A DNA stretch of 43,164 nt from assembly GCA_019912885.1 (NCBI GenBank), contig JAIOHV010000106.1, positions 1 through 43,164 on the forward strand, given 5' to 3'. Below the pieces are notes generated by a model. That model worked only from the letters and a program-made list of their open reading frames with translations. It ran no database searches and was not told where the DNA came from. The DNA is from a bacterium (lineage in GTDB: Bacteria; Lernaellota; Lernaellaia; JACKCT01). This document shows positions 6,991-43,164 of the stretch, one piece after another. Position numbers and translations under genes: made by a program. Position 1 is the stretch's first letter. Each line of letters opens with the position of its first letter.

Positions 6991-9900
6991 CTACGGGATG
7001 ACCGGCAGCAGGTCCGTGAAGATGCCCATGAAGTCGTTGTTCGAACCCATGATGGTCTCGTCAACGAGATACAGGCCGTAACCCGCCACGTCGAACGACG
7101 GGATCTGGATTCCGCTCATGAGCTCGCCCAGGAACGGAATGAGCAGTTCGCCGAGGATCGGCGCGACGTTCTCGAACAGCGCGTTATCCCAGTCCATGAG
7201 CGGTTCGGCGAAGACGTAAACGGTCATCGTCGGATCGTCGAAGTCCACCCAGAGGGTGTTGTCCGGGAAGGTGATCGAAAGTTCGCCGGGGATGATGATG
7301 CCGACCGCCATCTCCAGGAAGAGCGTCTCGTCGGAGCCGTCGTCGACGTACATCGACACGAGCAGGTCGCCGAGCTGGAACTCGATGGGGATGAAGCCGT
7401 CGGTTTCGGCCTGGCCGCTCGGCGGCGCCACCACGAGGACCGGCGGCAGCAACGGACGCAGTTTGATGTCCACATCGCCCGGCTTGGCAGCGTGCAGGCC
7501 CGGGAACGCGAGTTGCATGAAGACGTTGTCGGTCTCCACGACCGCGTCGAAGTTCTGCGAGATCATGCCCGTGCGGAACAGCAGATACAACGCCTGGTTG
7601 ATGAGGTCGTCACCGAGCACGACGCCGAATCCGTAGGGGTTCTGCGTGCCGGGGACGTTGGCTCCGATCTCGGTATCCGCCGGCGGAATGCCCGGGGTGT
7701 AGAGGGAGCCGCCGAAGTCGGGCACGCCGGGGATGGTGTCGGGCGAGCTGACGCCCATGTTCATCTCGATGGTGCCGCCGTCCTGATCCCACAGCACCGT
7801 TTCGATGGCGTAGGTCACACCGAACTCGGCGCCGCCGACATCAAACGAGAAGTCGGTCGGGAGCTGGTTGAGCAACTCCTCGAGCAGATCCGGCACGGTG
7901 TCGGAGAGCACGTCGTTGATGACATCTTCCATGAGATCGCTGATGTCGTCCTTGAACCAGTCCTCGAGTTCGTCGGGGAAGTTGTTGATATCAAACGAGA
8001 AGCCCTGGATGCTCATGCTGATGTTTTCGATCTCGACGGTGAAGTGGTCGTTTTCGTCCACGTAGATGAACGCGTCCGAATCGAGCCGGATCTCATCCAT
8101 GTCCACATCGCCGGAAATCGAGTAGCCGATGCCGAGAATGGTGCCGCGCACCTTGAATTCGAGGTGGATGTCGTTGACGCCGGCGACGAGCTTGATGCCG
8201 AGGCTCGGCAGAACGTCGAGCGAGAAGAACGGATCGCCGATCGTGACCTGTTGCACCTCCGCGCGCGCGCTGGCGATCGTGATGCCCCAGAATTTCACCT
8301 TTTCATCGAAGATCGGGTTCAACGAGTAGAGCAGGTTCGGAATCTGGTCGATGAGCTCGTTGAGGATCGGCATCATGAGATCGATCAACTGGTTGAACCC
8401 GCGCTCGTTCATCCGGAAGAACATCGCCGGCTGGATGAGCGCATTGTCGGGAACCTTTGAGCCGTTCATCGTGCTGACGGACGCCTTGGACGTATTGCCC
8501 GAGCCGCCCTCGGTGACCGTCAACTCCATGATGTTGAGGCCGTGCTCGAGGTTGTAGTCGTGGCTGAACTGGCACGCGTTCGGCGGGCCGGCGAGGTTTC
8601 GGACGGTACCCGGTGAATCCGAATACACGATCGTATCGTTCAGATAGTTGCAGCCGTTCACGATGCCGGAAATCAGGATGGAGTTCTGATCCACCCACAG
8701 GCCGCGTTCGGGCGTCCAGATTTCGATATCCGGCGCCGTCACGTCGATGACCTGGATGGTTTCCGTATCCGACAGGCCGCTCCACGGAGGCGCGGCGGTG
8801 CCGGTGATGTCGAAGATGCCCTGGTCGTTGAAGGTGATGTCGCCGGCCGCCGGCGTGTCGTCCTGCACCCCATTCGTCGGATTGACCGAAAACGCCGCGT
8901 CGACGGTGTCCACGATATTGCCGTACTGGTCCTTGATGACCGCCTCGGGATGCGTGAACTCGCCCTGATTCAGCACGGGGTCGGGAATGAGGATGTCGAG
9001 CCGGAACGGATCGCCCGCGAGCACCTCGACGACCTGTTCGGCGAACAGGCCCGTGCCCACCACCGTCGCGCGCACGGTGACGAAGCCCGCGCGGGTGAAG
9101 ACGAAATACGCCGGGTTGCCCTGCGTGATGGTAACGCCCCACGTGGGGGAGGTCGTCCACAGGACGTTCGCGAAAATTTCCTGATCGTCCTCGTTATACA
9201 CGGTGGCCGTGCCGGAGATCTGCTCGCCCGCCTGCGTTTGCAGCGCGGACATGTCGATCTCGATCGAGCCGGCCTGGTCCGGGTCCACCCACACGAACGC
9301 CTCGCCTTCAACGAACTCGCTGTCGAGAATCGTGGAAAGCGTGATCGTGAAGAAACCGGGCTGCGTGAACAGCACCGTCTGGTTCAGTTCGTTCACCGTC
9401 ACGCCGTTGGCCGGCAGGACGTCCCAGTCAACCGTGACCTCGTCCGAGCGATCATCGCCGGTCTCGTCGATGACGGCGTAATCCACCGTCACGAATTCGC
9501 CGGCCTCGATCTGGTTCTTGTCGAGCGTGACCTGGATGTGCGGTTCGATAAGCTCGATCGAGAAGTAGCTGTAGGCGTCGACGATGCCCTGCGGATTCGA
9601 GTCCGGGTCGACGTGGTTCGGATGCGTTCCGTAGATGCGAAGCGTGTAGTCGCCGGGATCGACATACGGAAATTCGCCGCTGACGAATCCGCCGCCGACC
9701 GTGAGGTCGCCCGTCCAGTCCGCGTACCCGGAGCCGTTATCCACAAGGACATGAATCGTGCCCGGATCGATGTTGAAATACGTCGCCTGAATGGGGATGT
9801 CGCGGTAATTGAAGATCGCACCGGGCTGCGGCTCGATGATTTCGATCTTGCCCATGTCGATGGAGAAATTGACGGAATCCGTATCGCTGCCGCCCGAACC

Positions 9901-10476
9901 GTCGAAGACGTTCGCGACCAGCGTGTGGCTGCCCGCGTCGATCGCGAAGACGCCGGTGATCTTGGTGGAAGTGACGGTCAGGTACGAGGTGATGTCGTCG
10001 CCGTCGAGGGTAACGACCGTCAACCCGACGTTGATATTCGCGACGTTCGCCTCGATATCGAAGGTGTAGCCGTCGAACTCCTGATTGTCGGCCGGCTTCA
10101 CGAACGCGACGGTGGGGAGGTCGTCATCGTCGTCGTCCGCGTCATCGTCGGAGTCGTCGTCGGAGTCATCGTCCGAGTCGTCGTCCGAATCGTCGTCCGA
10201 GTCGTCATCCGAGTCGTCATCCGAGTCGTCGTCCGAGTCGTCGTCGGCGTCGTCGTCCGAATCGTCATCGAAATCGTCGTCCGCGTCGTCGTCCGGGAAG
10301 GTGTCGTCGTCGCCGATGTCGTCATCGCCCGGAGGGGGCGGGCTAAAATCGTCGTCGTCATCGCCGACGCGAGAGCCGCCGTTGTCCTCGCCGCCGCCGC
10401 AAGAGCACGAGGCCAGCGAAAAGGCGAGCGCCAGTACAAGAAAGACCGTAAGCGCGGTCGACCGATTCCGCGTCAT
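6991..10476 (-). CDS. Large surface lipoprotein: Asp-rich tether, Ig-like domains, BPI/TULIP-like domain
   Basis: ATG 10476 follows GGGAGG. The signal peptide ends in lipobox LASC with lipidated Cys24, Ser at +2 and a second Cys at 26, so outer-membrane sorting is likely. Residues about 36-127 are an Asp-rich tract (DDDS/DDDD units). Residues about 128-660 contain several beta-sandwich Ig-like modules (for example FVKPADNQEF, IEIIEPQPGAIF, QTQAGEQISGTATV). From about residue 690 the protein resembles the two-barrel TULIP fold of BPI/LBP. An amphipathic region is followed by DVDMDEI and VEIENISMSIQG strands. A helical stretch (DDISDLMEDVIND) comes next. A second half opens GFGVVLGDDLINQALYLL and the ending is LMSGIQIPSFDVAGYGLYLV, laid out like the BPI C-terminus. 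Lipid or hydrophobic-ligand binding at the cell surface is inferred. A terminator follows the gene. Confidence 0.8.
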   Translation of the reverse strand: MTRNRSTALTVFLVLALAFSLASCSCGGGEDNGGSRVGDDDDDFSPPPPGDDDIGDDDTFPDDDADDDFDDDSDDDADDDSDDDSDDDSDDDSDDDSDDDSDDDSDDDSDDDADDDDDDLPTVAFVKPADNQEFDGYTFDIEANVANINVGLTVVTLDGDDITSYLTVTSTKITGVFAIDAGSHTLVANVFDGSGGSDTDSVNFSIDMGKIEIIEPQPGAIFNYRDIPIQATYFNIDPGTIHVLVDNGSGYADWTGDLTVGGGFVSGEFPYVDPGDYTLRIYGTHPNHVDPDSNPQGIVDAYSYFSIELIEPHIQVTLDKNQIEAGEFVTVDYAVIDETGDDRSDEVTVDWDVLPANGVTVNELNQTVLFTQPGFFTITLSTILDSEFVEGEAFVWVDPDQAGSIEIDMSALQTQAGEQISGTATVYNEDDQEIFANVLWTTSPTWGVTITQGNPAYFVFTRAGFVTVRATVVGTGLFAEQVVEVLAGDPFRLDILIPDPVLNQGEFTHPEAVIKDQYGNIVDTVDAAFSVNPTNGVQDDTPAAGDITFNDQGIFDITGTAAPPWSGLSDTETIQVIDVTAPDIEIWTPERGLWVDQNSILISGIVNGCNYLNDTIVYSDSPGTVRNLAGPPNACQFSHDYNLEHGLNIMELTVTEGGSGNTSKASVSTMNGSKVPDNALIQPAMFFRMNERGFNQLIDLMMPILNELIDQIPNLLYSLNPIFDEKVKFWGITIASARAEVQQVTIGDPFFSLDVLPSLGIKLVAGVNDIHLEFKVRGTILGIGYSISGDVDMDEIRLDSDAFIYVDENDHFTVEIENISMSIQGFSFDINNFPDELEDWFKDDISDLMEDVINDVLSDTVPDLLEELLNQLPTDFSFDVGGAEFGVTYAIETVLWDQDGGTIEMNMGVSSPDTIPGVPDFGGSLYTPGIPPADTEIGANVPGTQNPYGFGVVLGDDLINQALYLLFRTGMISQNFDAVVETDNVFMQLAFPGLHAAKPGDVDIKLRPLLPPVLVVAPPSGQAETDGFIPIEFQLGDLLVSMYVDDGSDETLFLEMAVGIIIPGELSITFPDNTLWVDFDDPTMTVYVFAEPLMDWDNALFENVAPILGELLIPFLGELMSGIQIPSFDVAGYGLYLVDETIMGSNNDFMGIFTDLLPVIP

Positions 10477-10855: not shown

Positions 10856-11527
10856 ATGAGGCGTTTTCCCCGTGCGATTTATTTTCTCATCGCCGCGAGT
10901 GCGATCGCGATGTCGCCGTTCGCGGCGTCTTGCTCCTGCTCGGGCGACGATGACGACGACTCGGACACCGGCGATTTGCCCACCGTGGACGATGACGCGG
11001 CGGACGACGACGACACCGCGGGTGGCGACGATGACGACGCCGGCGACGACGACGATTCCGCCGGCGACGACGATGCGGGTGATGACGACGATGACGATGA
11101 CTCCGGTGACGACGACGATGACGATGACACCGGTGACGACGACGACGATCTTGACGACGACACGGGCGATGACGACACGGGCGACGACGACACCGGCGAC
11201 GACGACACCGGCGACGATGACACGGGCGACGACGACTCCGCCGTGGCTTACGATCACCTGGTCACGATCGACGGCTCCGATGTGGACATCGATCCGCTGA
11301 ACATCGACGTCGGCGATACGGTGCGTTTCCTGAACGAAGACTCGTTGACGCATCGCCTGATGAGCGGCACGCCGGGCAACCCGGACGGTGAGTTTGACAC
11401 CGGTAATCTCGGCAACGGCGATTTCTTCGACCACACCTTCGACTCGGTGGATTCGTACACGTACTATTGCTCGCTGCATTCGGGCACGATGTTCGGGTAC
11501 GTGATCAACGTGTCGGCGGTGAAATAG
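10856..11527 (+). CDS. Asp-tethered cupredoxin (blue-copper) lipoprotein
   Basis: GGAGGTGA lies just upstream of ATG 10856. The signal peptide ends AASC with lipidated Cys26, Ser27 and a second Cys28. Residues about 30-129 are almost wholly Asp with Gly, Ser, Thr and Ala spacers (DDDTGDDDTG units). The C-terminal 90 or so residues form a plastocyanin/azurin-type domain. It has a type 1 copper ligand set: His166 (in DSLTHRLMSG), Cys205, His208 and Met212 (CSLHSGTM). Cupredoxins carry single electrons between redox partners. Here the copper domain would sit on a long acidic arm away from the membrane. The redox partner is not in the window. It is convergent with the SWIM gene across about 34 bp, with no obvious terminator. 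Confidence 0.9.
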   Translation: MRRFPRAIYFLIAASAIAMSPFAASCSCSGDDDDDSDTGDLPTVDDDAADDDDTAGGDDDDAGDDDDSAGDDDAGDDDDDDDSGDDDDDDDTGDDDDDLDDDTGDDDTGDDDTGDDDTGDDDTGDDDSAVAYDHLVTIDGSDVDIDPLNIDVGDTVRFLNEDSLTHRLMSGTPGNPDGEFDTGNLGNGDFFDHTFDSVDSYTYYCSLHSGTMFGYVINVSAVK

Positions 11528-18576: not shown

Positions 18577-21051
18577 TCAGTCCGCCTCCAGGAAATCATC
18601 CCCGAATCGGACGTACCATAGGGACTGTTCCCCGCCGTATAAAAGGTGAACCATGGCACTCGCGTCCACGGTAAGATCCATGCCGCTGTTGCTGCCGACA
18701 TGACCACCCCAGTCCACCACTTTGTCGAGCCAAGTACTGTCTTGCAGAACCATTGCATGCACCTCGCAACACAATGGGTCTATCGGCACAAGGGGGGCAT
18801 CCGCGTAGGCAACGTACAGGCGCCCATCCGGTCCGAAGGCCACAGCCGTGCTTTCGACACTGATGGACTCCGTCGGGTCCGTCAGATCCTCGATGGTCCA
18901 CGACCCCTTGCTCCCGGTTGCCAACCGTCCGCCGACCCCCGTGGAGTTCCGGTAACCGTAGGTCACGTAGATCGTGCCGTCCTCGCCCATGACGGCGTCC
19001 ATGCCGAGTCCGTACTCGGTCTCTGTCGGACCGACCTCGACGTAGTGCCGTTGCCAACCCAGGGGCGTCTTCCACAGCGTCACTAGGAACCGACCGATGG
19101 AAAAGAAATTGAAGTACGGGAACGAGCCGATGACGTGCGGGGTGCCGTCCGGAGCCATCAGCAAACGGACATCTGCGTAACCGGTGACCGCAGAGAACCA
19201 GTTCCACACATCCGTGTGCCAAGTATCGCCGTCCCCCCAAGACCACGTCACCCCCAGATCACCCCAAGAGACGTCGCCGACGATCCCCGCCGCCACGACG
19301 TTCACGACATCATCCGGCGTCAGATCCACGCTGGTTTCGATCTTGTAGGCGGGGTAGCCCGGGTCGTCGGGCGCAGTTTCCACGGTGCGCTCGCGCCAGG
19401 CGCCCGTGACGTTGTCGAACAACAGGACGAGGCTGTCTGGCGCGTCGTCCTCGGATGGGTCCGCAGCGCTGATGTATCGGGCACCCGCGGAATCGAGATC
19501 GAGGCTGGGACCCTGTCCCGTCCCCACCTTCTCCACCACCCAGCGGTCGTTCTGCCGCCGCGCCGCCCAGATTTCGCCAATGTTACGCCACGTATCCTCA
19601 TCGATCGGTTGGTAGATGAAGTGCTGAAACGCGACGTCCAAGCGGTCTCCCCAAACAGCGCTGTCGGTGTGGGGATACGACAACGCAAACCCATCTTGCA
19701 TCTTTGAGCTAACCTGCCAATTCGTACCATCAAACTGCGCGAGGAAAAGCCCAACCGGTGAAGATGAAAATGCAATTTCTGCGAAGTTAGTTTCATTCGC
19801 ATGTGAAACCGAATAATCAATCAAATATGGAGGTGCCTCCATCGCCTCACCTGCCCATTGGCCGGAAATTTGATGCCAGAGTGTCAGGGCAAAATCCGAT
19901 CGGGTGACGATCTGTAATTCACCATTCAGTAAACGCACATCTATTAACCGACGAGATTGCGTCTCGATGGGAAGGAGTTCATCAACCCATCCATCATCGG
20001 TGCGATGCGTTAACCACACATTATCGTAAATAATTCCATTCTCGATCCAAGCGATGACTGGTTGACCATCGGCGTCTAGGGTCATGTCAATGTAGGGTGA
20101 CCCCCCATCGCGGGCGGTTTCCATCGTCCAACCCTCTCCCGGTGCCTTTCGCGCGTATCGAAAGACATACCCATCCGTACTAAAGTGGTGAAAGGCGTAA
20201 TGAACTGTCCCCGTATTATCCACAACCAACGCTTTATTACGATCATAACTACCGATGTTCGTCGTGCCGAACGGGTCCAGCACCTCGAATTCCCAAGCGC
20301 CGCTCTCGTTCGTCCCGTAGGAGTACCCGCCCCGAACGGCGTCCTCCAATCCCAGGTGGACGTATCCCATGTCATCCACGTCGACTACGAACTGAACCGC
20401 GCCGTTTTCCCGGTACAGAATGTAGTCGCTGATGATTTCGCGCGTCCAAGCGCCGCTCCGGTTCGTCGCGTAAACAAGCTTCGCGCCTCGCAGGTCGAGA
20501 TATAGCACATGAAGACGGTCGTCCGTGTCGATCGCCACGGCGGGCGACGACGCAAAGTACGCAAGCGTTTCTTTTGCGATTTCCTCCTCGGGCGTGACCT
20601 TGTAGTGAACGACACATCGTCCCTGTCCGGCGACCACGTGCCGGTCGCCGTTGCTCGCCAGGACAAAGGCCTCGGACGTCAGATTCGGAAATCCGCCCCA
20701 TACCCGTTGAAGAAGCAAGCCGTCCTTGTCCCAAAGCGTTTCCGAGGGATCGTCGGGCAGGGCCGTGTCATCGTCCGACTCCGTGTCATCGTCGATGGCC
20801 GAATCGTCGTCGAACCCCGTGTCGTCGTCCAGGCCCGTGTCATCGTCATCGATGGAATCGTCATCGGCGTCATCGTCGCTGGAGTTATCAACCGAGTCGT
20901 CATCATCGATGGAATCGTCGTCGAGCGCGGTGTCGTCGTCGGCCTGGCCTGCGTTTGACGAAGGGTCGCCGCAAGAGCAACCCGTCACCAAAAACACGCA
21001 AACCACCGCGATCAGTAGTAACGCAACCCTGAGGCGGCTTCTCTCGCGCAT
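18577..21051 (-). CDS. Asp-tethered lipoprotein with beta-propeller-like repeats
   Basis: I take ATG 21051 (MRERSRLRVALLL), preceded by GGAG nine bases upstream; the frame runs ten codons further to 21081. The lipobox is VTGC with lipidated Cys25, Ser26 and Cys27. Residues about 36-104 are Asp-rich (DDDS, DDDT units). The rest consists of repeats of roughly 40-60 residues, each a hydrophobic strand followed by a turn and an aromatic strand (AVAIDTDDRLHVLYLDL, VVDVDDMGYVHLGLED, ALVVDNTGTVHYAFHH, TVDASAMVHLLYGG). They resemble blades of a BNR/sialidase-like propeller. No catalytic residues are identifiable, so ligand binding at the cell surface is a guess. The coding DNA between about 19690 and 20270 is clearly richer in A+T than either side, which suggests part of the propeller has a different history. 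Confidence 0.8.
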   Translation of the reverse strand: MRERSRLRVALLLIAVVCVFLVTGCSCGDPSSNAGQADDDTALDDDSIDDDDSVDNSSDDDADDDSIDDDDTGLDDDTGFDDDSAIDDDTESDDDTALPDDPSETLWDKDGLLLQRVWGGFPNLTSEAFVLASNGDRHVVAGQGRCVVHYKVTPEEEIAKETLAYFASSPAVAIDTDDRLHVLYLDLRGAKLVYATNRSGAWTREIISDYILYRENGAVQFVVDVDDMGYVHLGLEDAVRGGYSYGTNESGAWEFEVLDPFGTTNIGSYDRNKALVVDNTGTVHYAFHHFSTDGYVFRYARKAPGEGWTMETARDGGSPYIDMTLDADGQPVIAWIENGIIYDNVWLTHRTDDGWVDELLPIETQSRRLIDVRLLNGELQIVTRSDFALTLWHQISGQWAGEAMEAPPYLIDYSVSHANETNFAEIAFSSSPVGLFLAQFDGTNWQVSSKMQDGFALSYPHTDSAVWGDRLDVAFQHFIYQPIDEDTWRNIGEIWAARRQNDRWVVEKVGTGQGPSLDLDSAGARYISAADPSEDDAPDSLVLLFDNVTGAWRERTVETAPDDPGYPAYKIETSVDLTPDDVVNVVAAGIVGDVSWGDLGVTWSWGDGDTWHTDVWNWFSAVTGYADVRLLMAPDGTPHVIGSFPYFNFFSIGRFLVTLWKTPLGWQRHYVEVGPTETEYGLGMDAVMGEDGTIYVTYGYRNSTGVGGRLATGSKGSWTIEDLTDPTESISVESTAVAFGPDGRLYVAYADAPLVPIDPLCCEVHAMVLQDSTWLDKVVDWGGHVGSNSGMDLTVDASAMVHLLYGGEQSLWYVRFGDDFLEAD

Positions 21052-31659: not shown

Positions 31660-34533
31660 TCAACAGCCGCAGCAGCCGCCGTCATCGTCGTCATCGTCGT
31701 CATCGTCATCGTCGTCGTCGTCGTCGAGCGGCGAGCCGGAGTCGTCGTCCGACGCGTCGTCATCGCCGGTGTCGTCGTCCATCGAGGTGTCGTCGTCGGC
31801 GGTATCGTCGTCGGCGTCGTCGTCCGCGGTGTCGTCATCCATCGTGTCGTCATCCGCGGTATCGTCGTCGATCGACGTATCGTCGTCGGCGGTGTCGTCG
31901 TCATCGTCGCCGGGGATCGTGGTCGTCGTGGTGGTTGTCGTGGTCGTCGTGGTCGTTGTCGTGGTGGACGGCGTGTCGGGCCATCCGCGCACGGCGATGT
32001 TGTCGAGTCCCCAATACTCCGCGGGGCCGATGCCGGTGACGTACCGGAAACGCACGTACAACGCCGGCTCGTTCGCCGCGTTCGGCAGATCGAATTCGCG
32101 TTCGCCCTCGTCGTCCAGGAAGCGGAAGGTCCGCACCACGGTCCAGTTCTGGCCGTCAGTGGAATAGGCGACGTCGCCGGGCTCCGCGAAGCCGGCACTG
32201 AAGAAATGATCGAAACGCACCGTGATATCGTGGTGCTCCGAACAGTCGATCGCGGGCGTGATCATCGCGTCATCAAAAGGCACGAGGAAGCCGGCGAATT
32301 CCTTGTCCGCGATCGCGAACGTCCCGTCCCAGAATGGCGACGTGCGCGCGCCGGGGTTGTCCGTGCGCCAGGTGTGCGCGGCGCTGCCGCCGTTTTCGAT
32401 TGTCCAGTCGGACAGGTCGCCGGTCACCGTCTCCCAGTCCTCGAAAAACAGGGTGTCCGGACCGATGGGCATGCCGAGGCGCTCCACCGTGTTCGTTTCC
32501 TCGTAACCGAACGCATCCTCGGCGCGCACGACGTAGTAGAACGGCGTGTAGTTTGCGAGGCCGATATCGATGTAAGTGGTCTGCGTCGTGGAGGCGAGCG
32601 GCGCGCCGAAGTTTTGCCCGCCCGGCGCAAGCGCGCGGTAGATGTTGTAGGTCACGTTCGTTTGATCGGCCGCCGCGCTCCAGGCAAGCGTGACGGTCGT
32701 ATCGCCGCCGGTCGCGGACGTAAGTCCGGCGAAGATCGGCGCGGCGCAGTCGATCTCGACCTCGGCGGTTTTTGTCACGTTCGTGCCGCCGTCGCCGTCG
32801 TCCGCGTCGATGTAAGTGACCGTCGCGAGGTCGCCGTGCGCGACCTGCAAAACGCCGTCCGTCGCGGGCGCTCCGGTTTCCGCGCTGATGACGCCCTCGT
32901 ACACGCCGTCCTTCACCTTGGTCAGCGTCACCGTTTCCGGTGTCGTCTCCGTGTCGCTCGTCGCTCCGACATACGCGAAGGCCGCAGTGAGGTCCGCGTC
33001 GCGCAGCGTGATATCGATGTCCTGCCCGCAGGTGACGACGGGCGTCGCGTCGACCTTGCCGTCGGAGTTGACCATCAGCGTTTGCAGGAAAAGATAGGCC
33101 TCGACCACGTCGATGCGCCCGTTGCCGAATGTGTTGTCCTCGCCGGCGTCGCCGAGATCGACGGCGGTTTCAAAGAGCGCGAACTTGATCTGTTCGGGCG
33201 TGGCGTCGGGGAAGGCGTCGCGCAACAGCACGACCGCGCCGGCGACATGCGGCGTGGCCATCGAGGTGCCCGAGAGGTTGCCGTATTGATCGCCCGGCAT
33301 CGAGGAACGCACGTCCGATCCGACGGCGGAGACCTCGGGCTTGATCGTCACGTCGTCGCAGCCCGAAGGCCCGCGGCTCGAGAATCCGGAGATCGTCGTG
33401 CCGTCCTGCAAGAGCGATCCGATCGCGAATGAATTGTACGGCGAGCTGATGCGGTCGCCCGGCGTGCGCAACGTCTTGGCGGCGGAGCCCTCGTTGCCCG
33501 CGGCGAACACGACGGTGACGCCCGCGGCTTCGGCGGCGTCGATCGCGCCCCACATCTGCGTGTCGCAGAAGGGCACCCCGTGATACAGAGGGCTGATGCC
33601 CCAGGAGTTGTTGATGACGTCCGGCACGTCGTCCATCGTCGCCGGATTGCCGTCCGGGTCGGCGAACCACTGGAACGCGAGGACGGAGTCGTCGATCGTC
33701 TGCTGGATGCTCACCCGGTCGATCGTGCCGGCCGCGATCCATTTCGCGCCCGGCGCCATGCCGATCTGATTGCCCGCGCCGTCGTCGCCGACGATGGTGC
33801 CGAGCGTGTGCGTTCCGTGGTAGCCGGCATCGAACGGGAAGGTCGTGTTGGTGACCGGATCGAACCATGCCTCGCCTGGATCCACACCCGCGTCGAGGCC
33901 GCGCCAACGGTCGCCGAACGCGATGTGATTGCCGTCCGCTCCGGTGTCGCAGTCGCCCGCGATCGCGGTGGACCCGTCGATGCCAAGCGCCCACAGCTCC
34001 GGCGCGCGCGTGATGGAAATGCCGTTTTCGATCGCGGCGATCAGGTGGCCGTCGTCAATCACCGGCTCGCCGATCGGCGCGATGTTTTCGATGGGATACG
34101 CGAAGGCGATCTCGCTTACGTCATCGCGCCAGGCGAGCTGCTGGATGAACGCGGGCTTCGCCCACACGGTGACGGCGTTCATGATCCAGTACGGCCGGAA
34201 CTTCGCGACGTGGCCCTCGCGTTCGCCGTCGGCCAGGTGCGCCCGAAGATCGGACTGCGTCGCGGCGGCGGTCTCCTGAAGCGCGGTGATGACCTCGTAG
34301 TGCCGGCGGGAAAGGCTTGCGCCGCGCGCCGTGAGTTCGTCGACCATCGCCTGCAAATCGACGCGCCCAGTCAGGATGACGAAGGCGCGCAGATACGCGT
34401 CGGGCGCGGCGTTTTCGATCGCCTGCCCGAGGGTGGGGTCAATCTTGTTGTCGGCCGTCGCGCCGGCAAAGGCCGTCCCGGCGCAAATAACGACAACGCA
34501 CACAAAAACGAACGCCCGCGATAGCGAACGCAT
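31660..34533 (-). CDS. Secreted subtilisin-like protease with Thr/Asp-rich tail ending in a Cys cluster
   Basis: ATG 34533 (MRSLSRAFVF) follows GGAGGG; the frame upstream is not needed. A signal peptide (cleavage after TAFA) precedes an I9-like propeptide (AYLRAFVILTGRVDLQ). The S8 catalytic domain has Asp196 (CDTGADGNH), His239 (HGTH) and Ser424 (SGTSMATPH), with the Asn in FAAGNEG, so it should be active. C-terminal parts are an FN3-like module (TLAWSAAADQTNVTYNIYRA) and a jelly-roll-like domain beginning FFEDWETVTGDLSDW and ending GLDNIAVRGWP. A run of about 17 Thr near residue 853 comes next, then about 80 mostly Asp residues, then GGCCGC at the very end. No transmembrane segment or known sorting signal is present in the tail. 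Confidence 0.9.
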   Translation of the reverse strand: MRSLSRAFVFVCVVVICAGTAFAGATADNKIDPTLGQAIENAAPDAYLRAFVILTGRVDLQAMVDELTARGASLSRRHYEVITALQETAAATQSDLRAHLADGEREGHVAKFRPYWIMNAVTVWAKPAFIQQLAWRDDVSEIAFAYPIENIAPIGEPVIDDGHLIAAIENGISITRAPELWALGIDGSTAIAGDCDTGADGNHIAFGDRWRGLDAGVDPGEAWFDPVTNTTFPFDAGYHGTHTLGTIVGDDGAGNQIGMAPGAKWIAAGTIDRVSIQQTIDDSVLAFQWFADPDGNPATMDDVPDVINNSWGISPLYHGVPFCDTQMWGAIDAAEAAGVTVVFAAGNEGSAAKTLRTPGDRISSPYNSFAIGSLLQDGTTISGFSSRGPSGCDDVTIKPEVSAVGSDVRSSMPGDQYGNLSGTSMATPHVAGAVVLLRDAFPDATPEQIKFALFETAVDLGDAGEDNTFGNGRIDVVEAYLFLQTLMVNSDGKVDATPVVTCGQDIDITLRDADLTAAFAYVGATSDTETTPETVTLTKVKDGVYEGVISAETGAPATDGVLQVAHGDLATVTYIDADDGDGGTNVTKTAEVEIDCAAPIFAGLTSATGGDTTVTLAWSAAADQTNVTYNIYRALAPGGQNFGAPLASTTQTTYIDIGLANYTPFYYVVRAEDAFGYEETNTVERLGMPIGPDTLFFEDWETVTGDLSDWTIENGGSAAHTWRTDNPGARTSPFWDGTFAIADKEFAGFLVPFDDAMITPAIDCSEHHDITVRFDHFFSAGFAEPGDVAYSTDGQNWTVVRTFRFLDDEGEREFDLPNAANEPALYVRFRYVTGIGPAEYWGLDNIAVRGWPDTPSTTTTTTTTTTTTTTTTIPGDDDDDTADDDTSIDDDTADDDTMDDDTADDDADDDTADDDTSMDDDTGDDDASDDDSGSPLDDDDDDDDDDDDDDDGGCCGC

Positions 34534-34588
34534 GGAGCCCTCCGTTCGTGTCCCGTTCAAGGGAATCACCCAGGAAAAACGCGGGGGG

Positions 34589-34617
34589 ATGTTAGGCGCT
34601 TTGCGGGGCGCAAGCAA
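34589..34617 (-). promoter_or_regulatory. Possible promoter of the subtilase gene
   Basis: On the minus strand TTGCTT (34612-34617), a 17-base spacer, and TAACAT (34589-34594). This puts the likely transcript start about 50 bases before ATG 34533. The match is moderate. Confidence 0.35.
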
Positions 34618-34728
34618 CAACGGGGACGATCGTTTTTTCGGCGAGAGCGCCACGATTTCCCGCCAGGCAGGCGACATCTCCCGGATTCTTGTTTTTCAAT
34701 TGGCCGTAGGCGCGCGCCGATCGACCAA

Positions 34729-42755: not shown

Positions 42756-43164
42756 ATGCGTATGTTTGTGCGCGGATATTTCCGGTCAGTCCTTGTTTTC
42801 ATATTCGTTTTTTTTGGGATTGCCGTCTCGGGTTGCGAATGTTTTGCCATCGTCGGAAGCGAGGATGGCCCCTTTTCAAATGACAACGACCACAACAGCG
42901 GTTGCGGTAAGTCGACCGGTGCAAAATGTGTCTATCCCGATGATTACTTTGACGACGACACGGCCGACGATGACACGGCAGACGACGATACGGCAGACGA
43001 CGATACGTTGCCTGACGACGATACCTTGCCTGACGACGATACGTTCGATGACGACACCGGCACCGACGACGACACGCTGCCGGACGACGACACGACCGAC
43101 GATGACACGTTGCCGGACGACGATACGGGCACCGACGACGACACCCTCCCGGACGACGACACGG
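42756..43164 (+). CDS. Asp-tethered lipoprotein, 3'-truncated by the window edge
   Basis: The frame has no stop before the right edge. ATG 42756 is preceded by GCGGAG. The N-terminus MRMFVRGYFRSVLVF is basic, then very hydrophobic, ending in lipobox VSGC with lipidated Cys27, Glu28 and Cys29. Residues 30-65 contain three further cysteines in about 35 residues (Cys near 52 and 60 among them), unlike the other family members. From about residue 67 the sequence is all DDDT units with LP, TG, TA or FD spacers to the end of the window. The functional domain lies beyond the window. It is the fifth Asp-rich surface protein in 43 kb. Confidence 0.85.
   Translation, partial: MRMFVRGYFRSVLVFIFVFFGIAVSGCECFAIVGSEDGPFSNDNDHNSGCGKSTGAKCVYPDDYFDDDTADDDTADDDTADDDTLPDDDTLPDDDTFDDDTGTDDDTLPDDDTTDDDTLPDDDTGTDDDTLPDDDT

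Follow-up and report, generated by a model that had tools for sequence, protein, structure and literature searches.

The window, i.e. the whole stretch of 43,164 nucleotides that was analyzed, harbors four genes for predicted lipoproteins, all of which (4/4) are Asp-tethered and which were the only lipoprotein genes found in it by the scan. The genes, named here by their first coding position (10476, 10856, 21051 and 42756), and their mature starts are the following:

6991 to 10476, minus strand: Asp-tethered lipoprotein of 1161 amino acids without Pfam match (translation, Pfam scan)
10396 to 10407, minus strand: its C-S-C-G mature start (Cys24 = 10405-10407, Cys26 = 10399-10401; translation, codons checked)
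10856 to 11527, plus strand: Asp-tethered lipoprotein with a plastocyanin-like domain (PF00127; Pfam scan)
10931 to 10939, plus strand: its C-S-C mature start (Cys26, Cys28; translation, codons checked)
18577 to 21051, minus strand: Asp-tethered lipoprotein of 824 amino acids from the ATG at 21051, with a weak BNR-repeat match below the cut-off
20971 to 20979, minus strand: its C-S-C mature start (Cys25, Cys27), then G-D (translation, codons checked)
42756 to 43164, plus strand: Asp-tethered lipoprotein, open at the contig end (translation)
42834 to 42842, plus strand: its C-E-C mature start (Cys27, Cys29), then F and not G-D, off-consensus (codons checked)

A positive n-region, a hydrophobic core and G, A or S at -1 are present in all four proteins. 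Their predicted cleavage contexts (slash at the cut) are LAS/CSCGGG for the 10476 gene, AAS/CSCSGDD for 10856, VTG/CSCGDP for 21051 and VSG/CECFAI for 42756. The original prediction had claimed that the mature N-termini read C-S-C-G, C-S-C-S, C-S-C-G and C-E-C-F at these residues, which proved correct when the codons were checked. It had also regarded the second Cys, at position +3, as conserved in all four. While the C-x-C is indeed found in 4/4, the C-E-C-F gene departs from the consensus, and the +3 Cys of the 10476 gene is not common to its homologues (see below). The strict form C-x-C-G-D-D-D is matched by none of the four (0/4).

Cysteine at position +3 in the genome and the family

The survey of the window's own genome (G000; 4,816,049 bases, 230 contigs) covered the window and 60 further stretches, amounting to 985,068 bases. 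Genes were called by a codon model and lipoproteins by a lipobox rule; the caller was home-made, not SignalP, and the mature ends are predictions. A lipoprotein was regarded as tethered if a 25-residue window no more than 150 residues from the Cys contained at least 12 Asp. Two in-between lipoproteins of G000 (8-11 Asp) were excluded from the 2x2 comparison. In this 985-kb sample, 33 of 63 Asp-tethered lipoproteins revealed a Cys at +3, compared to 1 of 33 untethered ones (Fisher p=3.2e-7). Thus, the opposite outcome, a +3 Cys no commoner in tethered than in other lipoproteins, was not obtained. With the window excluded, the values were 29/59 and 1/33 (p=1.7e-6), and under a stricter first lipobox rule, which placed the call at the second Cys for some proteins, they were 28/64 and 1/33. 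Stretches chosen at Asp tracts gave 12/29 tethered versus 0/13 untethered lipoproteins with +3 Cys, a second batch of G000 stretches 7/12 versus 1/7 (p=0.15) and a third batch 10/18 versus 0/13. When the tethered set was scanned from +2 to +25, 33 Cys residues were counted at +3 and 0-2 at every other position. On the other hand, the +3 Cys was missing from 30/63 tethered lipoproteins of the sample. The 4/4 frequency in the window is therefore partly owed to luck, because the rate in its own genome is 33/63, or 29/59 without the window.

Gly occupies +4 in 30 of the 33 tethered lipoproteins with +3 Cys, most of which then enter the Asp tract. The motif of the tether end is G-C-[S/G/T]-C-G-D(n). 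Its spread was determined in two further genomes of the same family (G001 and G002) and in four other members of the class (G003 to G006). In a DNA search, C-x-C-G-D-D-D was encountered 82 times in G000, 33 and 59 times in its two family relatives and 1, 3, 5 and 0 times in the four others of the class, while the reversed-pattern control gave 0 in each family genome and 0 in the other four, except 1 in one. If G or A was demanded before the first Cys, the counts were 69, 30 and 46 in the family and 1, 3, 3 and 0 in the other four. Outside the class, this form yielded single matches in 4/379 genomes. The best 80 of 117 motif stretches in named genomes included 21 of Deltaproteobacteria bacterium FR_14, a MAG of the same family; a hydrophobic signal precedes each of these 21 and none of the remaining 59. 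C-G-D-D-D-D, with C-x-C forms counted too, occurred 108, 67 and 102 times in the family and 5, 64, 36 and 0 times in G003-G006. Residue +2 in 148 motif rows was S in 68, G in 64, T in 8, D in 3, Q in 2, A in 2 and E in one, and in G001, 25/33 motif rows read C-G-C-G. Lipoproteins were sampled in the relatives as well: +3 Cys was present in 3/12 tethered versus 1/11 untethered ones in G001 (not significant, p=0.59), in 3/7 versus 0/16 in G002 (p=0.02) and in 0/13 tethered ones in the stretches of the four other class members.

Homologues of the 10476 gene exist in 7/7 class genomes, in most of them several. Within its cluster of 13 members, only the window copy carries a +3 Cys (0/12 others); the nearest homologues in G001 and G002, read by eye, begin with C-G-G-G and C-D-G-G. 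In other clusters +2 varies while Cys+3 is kept (CSCG/CGCG/CSCG, CTCG/CDCG/CDCE, CSCG/CSCD), a comparison that is biased as some loci were fetched by the motif itself. About half of the homologues in stretches picked without the motif keep the +3 Cys.

Taken together, the ratio of tethered to untethered carriers, the motif counts in the family and the position scan strongly support a specific association of the +3 Cys with Asp-tethered lipoproteins. To speak of a conserved residue or a rule, however, goes too far: about half of the tethered lipoproteins have it. The +3 Cys is the habit of one family without being a universal rule. Searches of the open-licence full-text literature revealed no description of a +3 Cys rule or of Asp-rich lipoprotein tethers of this kind.

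Predicted lipidated cysteine and processing machinery

Two Cys residues are available for cleavage and lipidation. In 50 of 53 C-x-C-G rows that had been selected without a lipobox rule, the first Cys is preceded by G, A or S at -1; position -3 is often Ala, which is looser than the consensus lipobox [LV][ASTVI][GAS]C. From the last Lys or Arg, the distance to the first Cys of C-x-C is 18.7, as opposed to 20.2 in single-Cys C-G-D/C-G-G lipoproteins and 16.8 in untethered ones, distances that could suit either Cys. We infer that the first Cys is the lipidated one. Alternatively, signal peptidase II might cut before the second Cys, so that the mature protein would start with C-G-D(n) like those of the other class members. 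Such a cut would yield the class-wide C-G-D-D start, and the signal up to the second Cys (18.7 plus 2) would come near the single-Cys value. However, besides the favorable -1 residue of the first Cys, the canonical signal length of untethered lipoproteins fits the first Cys better, and the second Cys would have a poor lipobox, with mostly Gly, Ala or Ser at its -3 position. Moreover, Ala is nearly absent at +2 (2/148) but common at -1 in the lipoboxes of other lipoproteins, so +2 does not resemble the -1 position of a second lipobox. Cleavage before the second Cys is thus very improbable.

Matches to LspA, Lnt, LolC/E-like proteins, the type II secretion system (T2SS) secretin GspD and GspN (TIGR04411) were obtained in 7/7 class genomes. 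In G000, two tandem LspA and Lnt all scored above the cut-off, and Lgt was recognized by eye next to LspA in relatives. LolC/E exceeded a strict cut-off in one genome only. GspD was above the cut-off in 6/7, G000 having two partial matches at contig ends below it. PF01203, above its cut-off in 0/7, suggested that GspN is absent, which is ruled out by the TIGR04411 matches above the cut-off in 7/7 genomes. Tandem LspA genes (G000:C9:18119-19080) also exist in G001, in G002 (in pieces), in G005 and in G006, whereas G003 and G004 have one copy. In relatives the tandem adjoins ileS and lgt (by eye), and both G001 copies retain the N-x-G-A-A-F and F-N-V-A-D motifs. A function of the tandem as a dedicated peptidase was rejected, since it is also found in G005 and G006, two genomes with few or no N-terminal C-x-C starts, and since G004, rich in C-G-D-D-D-D, has a single copy. 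In these lipoproteins the processing signals are ordinary, and the +3 Cys is new.

Cysteine tails at the C-terminus

The window contains a further protein with an Asp tract, located at the opposite chain end:

31660 to 34677, minus strand: exported subtilase (PF00082) with a choice-of-anchor J domain (NF038128) and an Asp-Cys tail; no lipobox called
31681 to 31911, minus strand: Asp-rich tether ahead of the Cys tail
31663 to 31680, minus strand: C-terminal tail G-G-C-C-G-C, directly before the stop, mirroring the N-terminal motif

The NF038128 match reached 32.3 bits at a cut-off of 30. In the samples of the seven genomes, 59 of 72 proteins with a C-terminal Asp tract possess a Cys in the last three residues, compared to 28 of 1051 without such a tract (p=1.7e-63). 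These counts omit open or low-scoring genes and genes of less than 150 amino acids, and another 174 genes, which have 4-6 Asp and include 12 with Cys, were kept outside the 2x2 table. If only proteins that have an export signal but lack a lipobox are considered, the ratios are 49/50 and 10/370. An export signal was missing, by the rule used, from 7/59 C-tail proteins. All seven genomes contribute tails (37, 5, 7, 1, 4, 1 and 4 in the samples of G000-G006).

Position -3 is the most frequent Cys site in the 59 tails (50), followed by -1 (41), -4 (14) and -2 (6). GCGC (22) and CCGC (9) are frequent endings; 37 tails contain C-x-C, seven C-C without C-x-C and 15 a single Cys, e.g. ...GGGLFSC. The single-Cys variant G-G-G-[LV]-F-S-C terminates four adjacent genes at L038:3123-8264. 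A transmembrane-like stretch was present in the last 45 residues of none of the tails (0/59). Read outward from the Asp tract, the N-terminal motif is G-C-x-C-end and the commonest C-terminal tail is identical, Cys residues being placed at +1/+3 and at -1/-3, respectively.

N-terminal and C-terminal anchors seem to replace each other. A C-tail was detected on 1/77 N-tethered lipoproteins versus 51/534 other exported proteins (p=0.014), and the lipobox of the lone lipoprotein with a C-tail was probably miscalled, because an ordinary cleavage site comes after it. Homologous domains bear either anchor: a C-tail protein (L080 9366-10904) is related, across a region of about 400 residues, to CSCG/CGCG lipoproteins of three genomes (36-39% identity, E down to 1e-81), a tail protein of G004 to a CSCG lipoprotein across about 700 residues, one of G002 to a CGCG lipoprotein and one of G000 to a single-Cys C-G-G-D lipoprotein. 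A Pfam scan of ten proteins of each kind mostly gave domains of extracellular type or no domain at all. The C-tail proteins contained subtilase, Kelch, glycosidase 2, beta-helix and PKD domains, and those with the N-terminal motif glycosidase 92, FG-GAP and esterase-like domains.

NCBIfam models did not match the tail itself in the ten C-tail proteins scanned, and searches of the open-licence full-text literature revealed no description of bare C-terminal Cys tails. The NF058595 lipo-invert tail was rejected as a candidate, as its best match in G000 (27.3 bits) stayed below the curated cut-off of 37 and weak matches were also obtained in 11/14 control genomes. Among the nearest described counterparts are the MYXO-CTERM proteins, which bear a generic GCGC motif and are proposed to undergo Cys lipidation and T2SS export (PMC11980579, PMC3325183); the enzyme lipidating this Cys is stated there to be unknown (PMC11980579). 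Common to both is a Cys near the end of a surface protein. However, in MYXO-CTERM a helix follows the Cys, which is absent in 59/59 tails, and here the Asp tract precedes the Cys. The tail genes end where myxosortase would leave its product. MYXO-CTERM-like ends (GGCGC or GCG, helix, basic residues) were seen at L291:3224-6610, L035:7694-9424 and L042:17410-18648; the first of these proteins (G003, GGCGC and helix) reached 12.2 bits with TIGR03901, below the cut-off of 20. At L291:6611-9796, a PorU-like protein (type IX sortase family, below the cut-off) itself ends with D(n)-ACGCGL. Similar terminal CXC, CCXX and GCAC-like ends are also described for the CXC/CC prenylation of Rab GTPases (PMC12197051), which is eukaryotic and cytosolic and serves as an analogy only. 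The tails may function in a similar way to MYXO-CTERM ends or the C-x-C ends of Rab, yet they are members of neither.

Possible roles of the second cysteine

The residues following the first Cys resemble known export signals. In Acinetobacter, GspN-dependent surface transport requires a Gly/Ser or Asn/Asp motif behind the lipobox, a Gly/Asp hybrid is seen in B. pseudomallei and S. oneidensis, and GDD or GGG is stated to escape Lol sorting in Pseudomonas (PMC12802150). Surface lipoproteins of the T2SS/GspN type, such as InvL of Acinetobacter baumannii and pullulanase, likewise display a lipobox followed by Gly/Ser- or Asn/Asp-rich residues, but a second Cys at +3 is not described for them in the parts of the text consulted (PMC12802150). 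In most of our tethered lipoproteins, G-D(n) comes directly after C or C-x-C, which the C-E-C-F gene of the window does not fit. C-G-D-D-D agrees with the description of GspN transport and Lol avoidance, which, however, gives no reason for the second Cys. The LES of Bacteroidetes, as far as covered by the consulted part of the source, shares acidic residues few positions from the lipidated Cys, the form in Bacteroides fragilis being S-D-D-D-D; it occurs in another phylum and has no Cys at +3, while here a long Asp tract comes next (PMC5080379). With C-[S/G/T]-C-G-D(n) instead of C-x-K-(D/E)2 or S-D-D-D-D, and in a host outside the Bacteroidetes, the motif does not belong to the LES.

Our preferred, albeit tentative, explanation, to which we would give slightly less than an even chance, is that the +3 Cys serves as a second attachment point on the tethers of surface-sent lipoproteins and is most likely S-acylated. 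Judging from the sequence, Cys+1 would receive its lipid and the protein would lose its signal peptide through the usual enzymes, Lgt and LspA. The Gly/Asp stretch would then divert the protein from ordinary Lol sorting to the T2SS with GspN, so that the tethered lipoproteins would most likely be sent to the outer face of the outer membrane, where the Asp tract may act as a spacer keeping the folded domain off the membrane. Cys+3 would provide the second attachment beside the lipid anchor, and one putative activity acting on it might also act on the D(n)-G-C-x-C-COOH tails of exported proteins without lipobox. A second attachment point is suggested because the N-terminal motif parallels the C-terminal tails, and S-acylation is preferred because the GCGC-bearing MYXO-CTERM proteins are proposed to be Cys-lipidated and exported by the T2SS (PMC11980579). 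The original prediction had offered a second modification, a disulfide or metal site, or recognition by a sorting factor. The mirrored tails independently support a second attachment or modification, whereas the two Cys are unlikely to form a disulfide or metal site between them if Cys+1 carries a lipid, which would occupy its sulfur.

It is conceivable, although rather unlikely, that a single enzyme or export machine reads the acidic tether with G-C-x-C in either chain direction and attaches a lipid or another group to the Cys. If true, such anchoring at both ends would give bacteria an extracytoplasmic equivalent of the C-x-C lipidation of Rab proteins, and N-terminal lipoproteins would gain an extra lipid beyond the set added by Lgt and Lnt. 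Against a shared enzyme speaks that families of the class with few N-terminal C-x-C starts have C-tails, too, so that the two need not share one.

A pure sorting function, in which S-C-G or G-C-G at +2 to +4 would be read by LolCDE or GspN and Cys+3 never be modified, we deem unlikely. The motif does sit exactly at the sorting positions, the machinery is present, and known systems read the residues that immediately follow the lipidated Cys as sorting signals (PMC12802150, PMC5080379), but the Cys at the far end of C-terminal tethers, where there is no lipobox or Lol word, would remain unexplained, and the tethered set rarely shows another small residue at +3 before G-D. If, by contrast, Cys+3 and the tail Cys were free thiols cross-linked by disulfides to partner proteins or a surface matrix, both chain ends and tails with one, two or three Cys would be covered. 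Cys-rich surface coats occur in other bacteria. Nevertheless, the fixed place no more than three residues from the chain end appears more typical of lipid attachment, and since we know of no partner either, cross-linking is about as unlikely as a pure sorting function.

Cys+3 might also be a functionless by-product of a micro-duplication that turned a C-G-D start into C-G-C-G-D, followed by drift. This origin would suit the abundance of C-G-D-D-D-D in the class, the prevalence of the C-G-C-G form in G001 and the many homologues that lack the +3 Cys. However, in G000 position +2 has shifted to Ser, mostly with TCN codons, while Cys+3 stays, C-S-y-G-D with another y is rare, and the mirrored C-terminal Cys pairs would require a separate cause. 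The copies are not recent duplicates, because their Cys, Ser and Gly codons vary. Altogether, neutrality is improbable. A metal site formed by the Cys pair and Asp at the membrane is hardly credible, even though C-x-C and C-C-x-C are common metal ligands, as the first N-terminal Cys would be lipidated, which leaves one thiol, and 15/59 tails have a single Cys.

Returning to the preferred reading of a second attachment point, acidic tethers with an outer Cys-x-Cys at either chain end point to an undescribed kind of protein anchoring, as far as their sequences can tell. If the mirrored Cys pairs are modified, the anchoring chemistry would be one not described in the searchable open-licence literature. 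Tails that end at the Cys without a cleavable helix separate lipidation from cleavage, which makes the question of the lipidating enzyme directly testable. Beyond that, the motif flags a large candidate surface proteome, comprising glycosidases, subtilase, Kelch and FG-GAP proteins, in an uncultured lineage.
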